This document shows positions 19,561 through 22,341 of a stretch of DNA of 39,612 nt, one piece after another. The stretch is taken from NCBI GenBank assembly GCA_005223375.1, contig RXOD01003889.1:1-39612 (forward strand), given 5' to 3'. Both the position numbers and the translations under genes were made by a program. The notes below the pieces were generated by a model. That model made no database searches, was not told the DNA's origin, and saw only the letters and a list, made by a program, of their open reading frames with translations. Numbering within the stretch: position 1 is the first letter of the stretch; the number at the start of each line of letters is the position of its first letter. The DNA is from Amoebophrya sp. AT5.2. Lineage: Eukaryota; Sar; Dinophyceae; Syndiniales; Amoebophryaceae.

Positions 19561-22341
19561 TCATTCGTTTTTGTTGGCATCGCTGGTTTTGGAATCGAAT
19601 TCACTTTCACTTTTGCTTTTCAGCTCCGCGCCTTCCCCGCCTGTTGATTCGCCTCGGTCCGACGGTGCCGGAATCACTTCCAAGTCTTCAAACTTCGAGT
19701 CGAACAGCAGATTCTCTTTCGGATCTGTTTCCGTGAACAGCCCCGGCAGATTTTCCCGCACCAGGCGCGACGGCAACCTCGGCCCCTGGTAAAACTCCTT
19801 CACATTGTTTTCCGTGAGCGCTTCGGCCGCTTCGAACGCTTGTCGCAGATCTTCGATCAGATCATCCACGTCCTCAATCCCGATGGACAAGCGCACCAAG
19901 TCCTCCGCGAGCGGTTCGACGGCGAGGTAGTTCGTCTTCTCCTGCGGCAAACTCGCGTGTGACATGTTCACCGGCATCTCGCATACCGAGTGGACGCTTC
20001 CGAACGACACCGAAATCTTGAAAATCCGGCACGCATCCAGGAACCGCTTCGAAAAGGCTGGATCCCCCGTCTCGAACGAGATCAAACAACCCGGACCGGA
20101 CGCCTGCTTCGCGTGAATCTGCTCCTCGATATGCGAGAGCTGCAGCACGCAGCTGTCGTCTTCGTCGGGATCGAAGTCGTCGTCCTCGTGGTCCACGGGG
20201 ACCCCATCAGCACGACCACTGCCCGCGCCACCAGCTCCCACCGCTTCGGTCCAGTACATCTTCATCACCTTTGGGTGCCCGCTCAAAAACTGCGCAACCT
20301 TCCGCGCGTTTTTCATTGACCGCTGCTGCCGTATCGCCAGGGTTTTTATCCCCCGCAGCAGCAGCCAGCAGTCGAAGGGCGCCAGCGCCGTGCCCTCGGC
20401 GTTCGCCTGGTAGGCGATTTCGTTCGCTAACACCGTGTCCTTCACAGACAGCAAGCCGCCCATCGTGTCCGCGTGTCCCGAGATCCATTTTGTCGCGGAT
20501 ATGAAGGGGGCAGATGGTAAGTGGGCAACAGGTGGTAACAAGTAGGACGCAGGGGGTCCCCACTTGGCTGGCGACGAGTGCGTCGAAGCGTCGGGCGGTT
20601 TCAGAGTCAGAGATGCCCCATTATGGGGATTAGGATGTGGGGGTGGCTCCCTCTGGAGGTAATGGTAAGCCATTGGGAGGTATCTATAATAGAGGGAAGT
20701 CATGGCAAGCCAGTGACTAAGTAGCATCATGGTGTTGACACAGCCAGAAAGTAGGACAGCAGACGGCGCCTGTGCCAATAAAAGCGGCGACTTATTCGTT
20801 AGCTGTAGAGTGCAAGGGGGCCACGGCCAGGCCTGCTGCAGACTTCTACAGAGGGCCGCGCTTGGGCTCGGGCTTGCTTCTATCAATCTAGCAGTAGGTG
20901 CAGTGCACCAGCCCTCTTCTTAGGACCACCAAAGGGGACTCCGAAAACCAGCCAAAAAAGTTATAGTTATACTTTTTTCAGCCAAAAAAGTTATACTTTT
21001 TTTACCTCTTCATCGCCTACTATACCAACTACTGGTCCCATCGCATAGCGGAGTGCACGACCAGATCCGCGCCCAGGTCGATCGGGCGGCACAGGAGGGG
21101 GCCCATCGCGGTCGCGTCGACCGAGAGCAGCACCCCGTGGTCGTGGCAGATGCTTGCCGCGGCCTCGATGTCGGTGATCCGCAGCAGCGGGTTACTCGGG
21201 GTCTCCAGGTGCAGCAGCCGGATGTCGCCCGGCGGCGCGGTTTCGAGCGCCTGCTTCAGCGCGTCGAGGTCGTAGGTGGGCAGGAATCGGGTGCGGATGT
21301 TCCCCGAGATGGGCGCAATCCGCGTCAGGTACCGGTACATGCCGCCGTAGATGTCGTCGCCGCACAGCACCTCGCCGCCCGGGGCGGCGAGCTTCACGAC
21401 CTGGGCAAGAGCGGCCATCCCGCTCGTGAACGCGAAGCTCGCCGTGGCCCCGTCGAGCATGGCCACCTGCTTTTCCAGGGCCGTGCGCGTCGGATTGCCG
21501 CTGCTTTGGTGGGACCAGGTGGTAAGTGAGTAAGTGGTAAGTAATTTTCTTGGGGGGGGGCTCTTCGGGGTCCCCTTTGGTTGTCCCAAAAAGAGGGCAG
21601 CAGTTGGAGGAAAGCCGTCTTTTCGCAGTCGGCGGATTTGGCACTCCTGAACCCTAGAGCCGACGACCATAACTAATCACCACCCTATTCGCCCCTTTCT
21701 ACCCTGCTTTCAGGACTATTACCACTGTCGTCAGTAGCTTTCCGCTACCGCTTTCCCTCTGCCTCCCAGTCGGTTTCCGCTCCCCATGCCACCCCCTACT
21801 CCCACAATGGGGCATCTCTGAAACCGCCCGGCGCTTCGCGCCGGGCGGTTCAGAGCGCCTTGACGCACTCGCCACCCGGGTCAATCCGCCACCCAAACCG
21901 GGACCCATTACACAGTACTTACCAGTTCCCTACTTGATACCATCTGGTCTCTCCCTAGCTGCGCGTGTAGTCGTACTCGCCAAAGCTCTCGGCGCTGGGC
22001 GCGCGGAAGGTCGCGGTCTGGTACAGCGGCGTGGACGCCGGTCGGTACGGGTCGTCCGGACACCCATCGAAAACGACCACGCGGGAGTCGGGGCGAAGCA
22101 CATTCTTGAAATCCTTGAATGAAGGGCGGGGCGGATACGTGGGCACCTCGTCGTACTTGCCGACACGGATGGGAAATTTCTTCGTGTTCACCACGAACCG
22201 CCGCTGGTGACTGTAGTTAAGCGGCGTTGTCGTGTGGTGGATCTTGTTCTTGGGTTGCTGACGCCAGCTCGCCGGCAACACCGAACCAGTAGCTACGGAA
22301 CCGCAAGCGCGGCAAGGAGAGCCCAAGGATCTGCCGAGCAT
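19561..22341 (-). CDS. Cystathionine beta-lyase / gamma-synthase-like PLP enzyme, three exons
   Basis: Exons are 21958-22341, 21048-21499 and 19561-20494, giving 589 residues. The enzyme is a Cys/Met-metabolism fold-type I PLP enzyme; beta-lyase, which cleaves cystathionine to homocysteine, is the most likely member. Visible motifs are EYDYTRS/GNPTR (phosphate and PLP binding), FTSGMAALA, GDDIYGGMYRYL, LETPSNPLL, SVDATAMGP (usually VDN) and HSA/TKWISGHADTMGG with the Schiff-base lysine at about K281, then LVRLSIGIED near the end. Slashes mark the two introns, and each flanking exon runs straight into a stop if unspliced. The N-terminus (MLGRSLGSPCRACGSVATG, then a basic stretch) looks like a mitochondrial presequence; another in-frame start exists at 22443. 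Oddities are an acidic insertion (about residues 355-380) and an acidic tail of about 75 residues. The fold is certain, the exact reaction less so. Confidence 0.88.
20495..21047. mobile_element. Introner-like intron 2 of the lyase gene (553 nt, TIRs, 5-bp direct repeats)
   Basis: The element is flanked by the direct repeat GCGGA (plus strand; 20495-20499 and 21048-21052), so the exact splice point is ambiguous by up to 5 nt. No placement gives GT-AG. The ends form a degenerate terminal inverted repeat: on the sense strand the left end has GATGGGACCAGTAGTTGGTA, and the complement of the right end has GGGGGCAGATGGTAAGT. Internal blocks match the other lyase intron in the opposite orientation: a segment with GTCCCCTTTGGT and one with GATGCCCCATTATGGGGA next to GGGCGGTTTCAGAG. 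Inside lies a direct duplication of CAGCCAAAAAAGTTATA (about 20951-20998). It separates HSA from TKW at the PLP-lysine motif. Confidence 0.8.
21500..21957. mobile_element. Introner-like intron 1 of the lyase gene (458 nt, TIRs, 5-bp direct repeats)
   Basis: The element is flanked by the direct repeat GCTGC (plus strand; 21500-21504 and 21958-21962). On the sense strand it starts TAGGGAGAGACCAGATGGTA, putting a stop codon right after the exon. The complement of its other end reads TTTGGTGGGACCAGGTGGTA, so the ends form an inverted repeat centred on GACCAG-TGGTA. GTAAGT sequences lie just inside both ends, reading inward on both strands. No canonical GT-AG pair fits the reading frame. Internal blocks match intron 2 in reverse orientation. 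It separates YDYTRS from GNPTR. Confidence 0.8.
21822..21850. repeat. Perfect 13-bp hairpin inside introner 1
   Basis: AACCGCCCGGCGC, a TTC loop, then the exact complement. The related element in intron 2 keeps only the left half of this block (complement of GGGCGGTTTCAGAG) with a diverged neighbour, so the full palindrome appears specific to this copy. Confidence 0.85.

Follow-up and report, generated by a model that had tools for sequence, protein, structure and literature searches.

Introns supported by RNA evidence have been described in Amoebophrya strains A25 and A120, and over 60% of them are non-canonical (Farhat et al. 2021, PMC7789003). Part of these non-canonical introns carry 8-20-nt inverted repeats and 3-5-nt direct repeats, and taken as a whole they average 120 and 240 nt in length (PMC7789003). 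In that paper, no family-specific repeat motifs are reported as detected, a general mobilisation by transposases is argued against, and the mobility and splicing of Amoebophrya introners are left open (PMC7789003). In Gozashti et al. (2022, PMC9860276), introners with terminal inverted repeats (TIRs) and target-site duplications (TSDs) are derived from non-autonomous DNA transposons, most of which keep the length of the mRNA.

The stretch of DNA analysed here, referred to as the window, comprises 39,612 nt (contig RXOD01003889.1 of Amoebophrya sp. AT5.2, assembly GCA_005223375.1) and contains a cystathionine beta-lyase gene interrupted by two TIR-bearing elements. These introns are copies of a TIR family, and on the combined evidence of reading frames, protein conservation and target duplications, it is probable that transcripts are freed of each copy exactly, at non-canonical borders set by the ends of the element. 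The family is most likely a new introner family of the non-canonical kind published for Amoebophrya, and no earlier report of it was found in the literature searched, which consisted mostly of sources other than subscription journals.

As far as the published descriptions extend, the family resembles the introns of A25 and A120 in its terminal inverted repeats, in the direct repeats lying over its borders and in its dinoflagellate host, and the repeats of A120 begin with TAT, as do those described here (PMC7789003). With a TIR of about 23 nt and duplications of 5 bp, the repeats are of the type known from those strains. The introns of A25 and A120 mostly lack GT-AG and form strain-specific families (PMC7789003); the non-GT-AG borders considered here follow from exact excision. 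Unlike in those strains, a single family with a conserved 23-nt TIR and an abutting duplication of exactly 5 bp is present, its elements are 369-548 bp long rather than 120 and 240 nt on average, and splicing, which is supported by RNA in A25 and A120, is deduced from sequence (PMC7789003). The introners of Gozashti et al. are likewise TIR/TSD DNA transposons serving as introns, and insertions in opposite orientations were considered in that search; the examples given there take their splice sites from the element, the duplication or the exon, whereas the exact borders here would almost never be GT-AG (PMC9860276). Other dinoflagellate introners (Roy et al. 2023, as cited in PMC11453091) likewise have dinoflagellate hosts and comprise many families. 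The nonconventional introns of euglenids, as far as described, are similar in their variable borders and in a structure that brings the ends together, but they differ in that the present host has a dinoflagellate spliced leader and the present introns belong to a clear transposon family.

Structure of the host gene and its two introns

The cystathionine beta-lyase gene occupies positions 19561-22341 on the minus strand and becomes a single open frame once 21500-21957 and 20495-21047 are removed (Table 1). These two intervals, given in the original prediction, are correct to the base, each of them consisting of one copy of the duplication plus the element. The spliced open reading frame (ORF) matches PF01053 at an E value of 3.1e-109, and its product matches cystathionine beta-lyase of PDB entry 1ibj at 6e-106, in an alignment that runs without gaps through both junctions (YDYTRS/GNPTR and VVHSA/TKW, the slash marking the junction). 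The first junction falls within a strongly conserved stretch, and the second adjoins the cofactor-binding lysine. All 17 coding segments found by a scan of the window, the three lyase exons included, lie on the minus strand, and coding on one strand is as expected of dinoflagellate gene clusters. Within the window, no Rfam family reached its gathering score and no tRNA was found.

Table 1. Coordinates of the exons, elements, duplications and repeats of the cystathionine beta-lyase gene
Feature	Position	Strand	Basis or remark
Exon 1, cystathionine beta-lyase	21958..22341	-	Spliced ORF, PF01053, 1ibj; start codon assigned by inspection
Exon 2, cystathionine beta-lyase	21048..21499	-	Spliced ORF, 1ibj alignment, codon score
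Exon 3 to stop codon, cystathionine beta-lyase	19561..20494	-	Spliced ORF, 1ibj alignment
Intron 1, 453-bp TIR element	21505..21957	-	Antisense to gene if the plus strand of intron 1 is the reference
Target duplication GCTGC, copy 1	21500..21504	.	Exact repeat of 21958-21962
Target duplication GCTGC, copy 2, within exon 1	21958..21962	.	Exact repeat
Intron 2, 548-bp decayed TIR element	20500..21047	-	Orientation opposite to intron 1
Target duplication GCGGA, copy 1	20495..20499	.	Exact repeat of 21048-21052
Target duplication GCGGA, copy 2, within exon 2	21048..21052	.	Exact repeat
Intron 1 TIR arm, low-coordinate end, with GGTAAGT	21505..21529	+	
Intron 1 TIR arm, high-coordinate end, motif decayed to GGTATCAAGT	21933..21957	-	
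Intron 2 TIR arm, low-coordinate end, TATG...GGTAAGT	20500..20522	+	
Intron 2 TIR arm, high-coordinate end, decayed, ends CATA	21025..21047	-	
Block common with 20911-20945, inverse orientation	21564..21598	+	89% over 35 nt
Blocks common with 20584-20627, inverse orientation (ATGCCCCATT and GGGCGGTTTCAGAG)	21801..21838	+	95-96%
Internal 13-bp perfect palindrome with 3-nt loop (intron 1)	21822..21850	.	

The homology of the two introns in opposite orientations, which had been predicted from shared blocks, is borne out by pairwise alignment. Aligned in opposite orientation, the introns reach a local score of 56, compared with 26 in the same orientation; the highest score among 500 dinucleotide shuffles was 30 (mean 20.4, sd 2.2). 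Both introns share three main blocks, which are inverted between the two and keep their order, among them 20584-20606 against 21816-21838 (23 nt, 96%) and 20607-20627 against 21801-21821 (21 nt, 95%). Introns 1 and 2 are distant relatives. The TIR core GGGACCAG-TGGTA that had been claimed for both was found at both ends, with partial decay of the core in each copy.

The two introns differ in the number of their relatives. In the 50.7-Mb genome, intron 1 has at least 40 further matches over at least 200 nt (40 of 521 candidates were scored), and among those scored, the matches that span nearly its whole length are 68-89% identical. The corresponding search with intron 2, for which the query was 20500-21046 and hence one base short, returned besides itself 13 short partial matches, the best of them 80% identical over 70 nt, and intron 2 is by this measure an old, decayed copy.

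The TIR family across the genome

On each strand, the ends of the family conform to TATG(G/A)NGGGACCAGNTGGTAAGT, a pattern that can also be given as TATG(G/A)NGGGACCAG(N)TGGTAAGT and that corresponds to the conserved 23-nt TIR. It occurs at 532 places in the genome with at most one mismatch and at 974 with at most three, while the reversed pattern, used as a control, has no match in the genome; viral contigs contain no match to the exact pattern. The first 100 places of the pattern were listed. Elements were analysed as pairs of ends in 94 fetched loci, the ends being paired by TIR alone. An exact 5-bp duplication flanks 39 of the 61 pairs selected in this way, and exact duplications of 3, 4, 6, 7 or 8 bp flank none of the 61. 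After three mispaired duplicates had been dropped, the 58 unique pairs comprised 39 with an exact 5-bp duplication, 9 with one mismatch and 10 with neither, whereas agreement between a left and a right end from different elements is seen in 3 of 3306 cases.

The 39 copies with exact duplications are 369-548 bp long (median 453) and have a GC content of 0.57, the same as their flanks; a palindrome like that of intron 1 is present in 24 of them. TIRs and a target duplication of fixed length are the marks of a MITE or other non-autonomous TIR DNA transposon, and since a family-specific motif and a fixed duplication length are what a transposase leaves, a cut-and-paste origin is favoured. The prediction that both introns derive from one DNA-transposon-like family inserted in opposite directions is thereby extended from two copies to a family with many similar copies in one genome, as is characteristic of introners.

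Copies are concentrated in coding sequence. By joint codon score, 32 of the 39 exact-duplication copies lie in coding sequence and the other 7 are not confidently coding, compared with 894 of 2263 control sites in the same loci (p 6.5e-8) and with 1663 of 3782 random sites in the window.

Evidence for exact removal

When the element and one copy of the duplication are removed, the two flanks agree in strand and frame for 29 of the 39 copies, where chance would give 1/6, and for 19 of 19 copies in which both 200-nt flanks are confident; none of the 10 copies with disagreeing flanks is a confident case. The joint codon score averages 21.2-21.9 at offsets of 0, +/-3 and +/-6 from exact removal and 1.8-4.1 at all other offsets between -6 and +6, and removal is therefore fixed modulo three. 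The 91 long ORFs used to train the codon model came from the window and from the loci analysed, and for that reason the model is not independent of the flanks; it is ignorant of the junctions, however. The length of the ORF across the junction was rejected as a test, offset 0 being strictly the longest in just 20 of 39 copies. Because the genome is GC-rich, ORF length discriminates poorly, and the codon score was used instead.

Protein alignments bear on the exact position. One junction each in methionine synthase, DNA polymerase epsilon and a MAP kinase-like protein aligns without gaps when joined exactly, and the junction in serine hydroxymethyltransferase is gapless against 6ccz, other such chains being about nine residues longer at that point. 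With the lyase included, six junctions in five conserved genes are gapless. One further junction (L006) gave weak matches of the alpha/beta-hydrolase type, none of which spans the junction, and it was left out of the evidence. Copies of the family would accordingly be introns in unrelated genes, with the frame restored on removal, as introners are, and the proposal that both window elements act as introns agrees with the restored frame and the gapless alignment of the lyase.

A different reading is that the elements are not introns, being either recent insertions that break genes or DNA that is excised before expression, like the internal eliminated sequences of ciliates. Ciliate-type eliminated segments are excised exactly at a duplicated target, a behaviour that the present elements would fit. 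Some copies of the family are, to judge from contig ends, young: of the 47 minus-strand ends among the 100 listed places, 20 are found less than 300 nt from the start of a contig and directed off it (hand count), as would be expected if near-identical copies break the assembly. Intron 2, on the other hand, is old and decayed, but it interrupts a gene that is otherwise intact and conserved, and the product must therefore be freed of the element. Dinoflagellate-type hosts are not known to possess a DNA-excising somatic nucleus. Non-canonical introns of the same design are supported by RNA in Amoebophrya, as far as the published account extends (PMC7789003), and the reading of the elements as something other than introns is considered very improbable.

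Borders and the GTAAGT motif

A 5-bp duplication leaves six possible cut positions, all giving the same mRNA, because both exon ends carry the same five bases. Under exact excision, 27 of the 32 coding copies offer neither GT-AG, GC-AG nor AT-AC at any of the six shifts; among the remaining five, GT-AG is possible in one, GC-AG in two and AT-AC in two, with a chance rate for GT-AG of about 2% by our own estimate. Intron 1 is one of the 27, and inspection by hand shows none of these borders for intron 2 either (TCCGC on the gene strand).

Borders away from the duplication were considered by combining GT donors in the first 60 nt with AG acceptors lying between -60 and +45 relative to the far end, and pairs were retained only if they preserved the frame without a nearby stop, at 33 junctions (the 32 coding copies and intron 2). 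At 7 of the 33, one of which (L011 2779) has an uncertain frame, the search over this range yielded no GT-AG pair that preserves the frame. Non-GT-AG borders would apply to 31 of 32 copies if excision is exact, and without that assumption to just 7 of 33 junctions in the searched range; GT-AG borders at each copy, as in canonical introners, were not found.

Both window introns belong to these seven junctions, and the suggestion of the original prediction that the inward GTAAGT motifs are splice sites in either orientation fails for them. In intron 1, read on the gene strand, the GTAAGT motif at the 5' end is no longer present. A GTAAGT donor was rejected for the two introns. Conservation of the lyase calls for removal exactly at the duplication, and there none of the shifts yields GT-AG.

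For the family at large, canonical splicing would take its donor from the GTAAGT located 17 nt into the element and its acceptor from an AG close to the far end; as the motif is present at both ends, this arrangement works in either orientation. Where the duplication starts with G, the sequence CATA/G would supply the AG, lengthening the mRNA by exactly 21 nt, or 7 codons, and leaving the frame intact. Both arms of the 32 coding copies conserve GGTAAGT, but the motif is part of the pattern by which many of these copies were selected. At 18 of the 33 junctions there is a pair that preserves the frame with the GT at +17 as donor, and at 10 of 12 G-first duplications, the genes for methionine synthase, polymerase epsilon and the MAP kinase-like protein among them, this is the pair adding 21 nt. 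Introners of Aureococcus adding 12 bp to the transcript are among the examples described by Gozashti et al. (2022, PMC9860276). Of the four junctions outside the window that were compared with solved proteins, these three thus have a +17 pair, so that exact removal at them depends only on seven extra residues being unlikely; such residues would sit in conserved stretches of the three enzymes. Set against this, the +17 pair is absent at 15 of the 33 junctions, seven of the 33 have no pair in range at all, and reading into intron 1 meets TAG at once. The G-first route, if required, predicts that all duplications start with G, whereas 20 of 32 start otherwise, and the excess of G over the mirror position (12 versus 6 of 32) is not significant (p 0.16). 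Canonical splicing could serve a subset of copies but cannot be the rule, and as an account of the family it is quite unlikely.

Orientation and pairing of the arms

With the plus strand of intron 1 as the reference, the coding copies are oriented 20 one way and 12 the other relative to the gene (p 0.22), and both orientations are thus represented genome-wide, as predicted. Read from the gene, the 5' and 3' TIR arms are equally decayed (1.13 each, in 15 homology-selected copies), and no feature in the sample tells the two orientations apart. This independence of orientation is better explained by borders at the symmetrical boundary of TIR and duplication than by the GTAAGT motif.

The outer 30 nt of the two window introns are predicted to pair, with about 20 and 18 expected pairs, the query for intron 2 again being one base short. 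Across 33 elements, arms from the same element pair with a mean of -48.0 kcal/mol and arms from different elements with -48.3 kcal/mol, 3108 of 5000 permutations being as good. Because own arms pair no better than foreign ones, the comparison provides no evidence that pairing is selected for splicing, and selection on the hairpin was rejected as a candidate, neither covariation of the arms nor unequal decay having been found. Compensatory change in the paired ends, which was our own choice of a mark for euglenid-type introns, was likewise not found, in a test that is weak as the arms share descent.

One reading of these observations is that transposon geometry, rather than the letters of a splice site, defines the intron: a machinery recognising the paired TIR ends in the RNA would take out the element and one duplication whatever the orientation and whatever the five target bases. 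Although we regard this as unlikely, recognition by geometry would, if true, render any insertion of the family into an exon neutral at once.

Host and proposed mechanism of removal

The 21-mer of the dinoflagellate spliced leader occurs in the genome 18 times exactly and 50 times within 2 mismatches, with none in the control, and the host is a dinoflagellate by its spliced leader. Together with the one-sided coding and an assembly of 50.7 Mb, this would suit a compact parasitic dinoflagellate of the Syndiniales type. Among the spliceosomal RNAs, U6 was found in the genome, and U1 and U2 were not; the absence of U1, a mark looked for in Amoebophrya-type introns, proves nothing because U2 is also missing.

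The mechanism proposed starts from a non-autonomous cut-and-paste DNA element of about 370-550 bp, which duplicates 5 bp of its target and of which copies have inserted into exons in either orientation. The element would then leave the transcript exactly, together with one copy of the duplication, bringing back the ancestral coding sequence, as frame and protein conservation suggest. The borders of removal would be non-canonical and lie at the base of the TIR, since the six cut positions almost never include GT-AG. The TIR arms, predicted to pair in both introns, may bring the borders together in the RNA, and the cut would most likely be made by a relaxed spliceosome, as discussed for Amoebophrya A25 and A120.

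Removal could also be independent of the spliceosome, as in the nonconventional introns of euglenids, with the TIR stem offering the borders to a nuclease and a ligase. This is a variant of the main explanation, with which its probability overlaps, and it is unlikely. Borders without a consensus would suit such a route, as would the terminal stems predicted in both window introns and the precedent of the euglenid introns, described as having variable borders and a structure uniting the ends. The arms do not covary, however; the stem would be present in any case because TIRs are needed for transposition, and the U6 gene indicates that a spliceosome probably exists.

Under the preferred explanation of exact removal at non-canonical borders, new copies would need a transposase acting in trans. 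Genome-wide searches with four Pfam families (MULE, DDE_Tnp_4, KDZ and hAT), the last two of which had no working control, found no transposase, and none was found in the seven ORFs of at least 750 nt beside 18 unpaired ends. In the 94 loci, unpaired ends open, by eye, into family-like interiors.

In this family the TIR is uniform and the duplication strictly 5 bp, ends number in the hundreds, copies lie in both orientations, and an intact conserved protein serves as readout. With six equivalent cuts per site, nearly all of them without GT-AG, the family makes the question of splicing testable.

Separately, a scan of the window for other elements with TIRs and duplications, which did not pick up the two known elements, returned 8 pairs with 5-bp duplications, compared with 1-3 in shuffles, and one pair with a 7-bp duplication, compared with 0 in shuffles, the longest match extending over 13 of 14 TIR bases.

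Possible Splice Sites and Terminal Inverted Repeats

When the family is read on the gene strand, the target duplication begins with G in 12 of 32 copies, and in 10 of these 12 the combination of a donor at +17, the GT of the GTAAGT motif inside the element, with an acceptor at CATA/G, the far element end, would yield exactly seven extra codons, in frame. Judged from these sequences, it is possible that the G-first duplications constitute an evolutionary bridge toward canonical splicing. At position 6 of the terminal inverted repeat (TIR), the same base occurs in both arms of one element in 4 cases, with 11.3 expected (n = 32), and the two arms of an element seem to be fixed with different bases at this position.

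Matching duplications are absent in 10 of the 58 TIR pairs, including those at the fetched loci L002, L007, L009, and L092; such pairs could represent recombinants, deletions, old sites, or mispairings.

Neighboring Elements and Internal Features

Two introners lie close together both in the cystathionine beta-lyase gene and at the fetched locus L011, where the neighboring pair shares the same orientation. Within intron 1 of the former gene, a perfect palindrome was observed, and a resembling palindrome is present in 24 of 39 family copies. Intron 2 carries CAGCCAAAAAAGTTATAGTT in two near-identical copies, a repeat that was not seen in intron 1.

Coordinates of features in the window, at L011, and in the genome
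Feature	Location	Description
Palindrome, intron 1	window 21822-21850	perfect, 13 bp
Repeat, intron 2	window 20949-20998	near-identical 20-nt copies, spacing 30 nt
Very long uninterrupted ORF	within window 1-38151	1639 aa; MTS domain
Very long uninterrupted ORF	within window 1-38151	2942 aa; FH2 match, marginal
Family member	L011 1502-1912	inside DNA polymerase epsilon gene
Family member	L011 2779-3260	867 bp from the preceding element
Spliced-leader 21-mer	contig C4:3992-4012	exact match
Spliced-leader 21-mer	contig C1542:10133-10153	exact match

Genomic Setting

All 17 coding segments detected by scanning window 1-38151 are located on the minus strand, and the two very long uninterrupted ORFs suggest that, besides the two introners, much of the window is probably intronless. 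Genome-wide searching revealed 18 exact matches to the dinoflagellate spliced-leader 21-mer, a repeated occurrence which, at the sequence level, identifies the host lineage as dinoflagellate.

The assembly seems to have been broken by young, near-identical copies of the family. Among the matches listed, 20 of 47 minus-strand TIR ends lie no farther than 300 nt from the start of a contig and face outward off it, with the CAGCTGGTAAGT end variant found in 14 of these 20.
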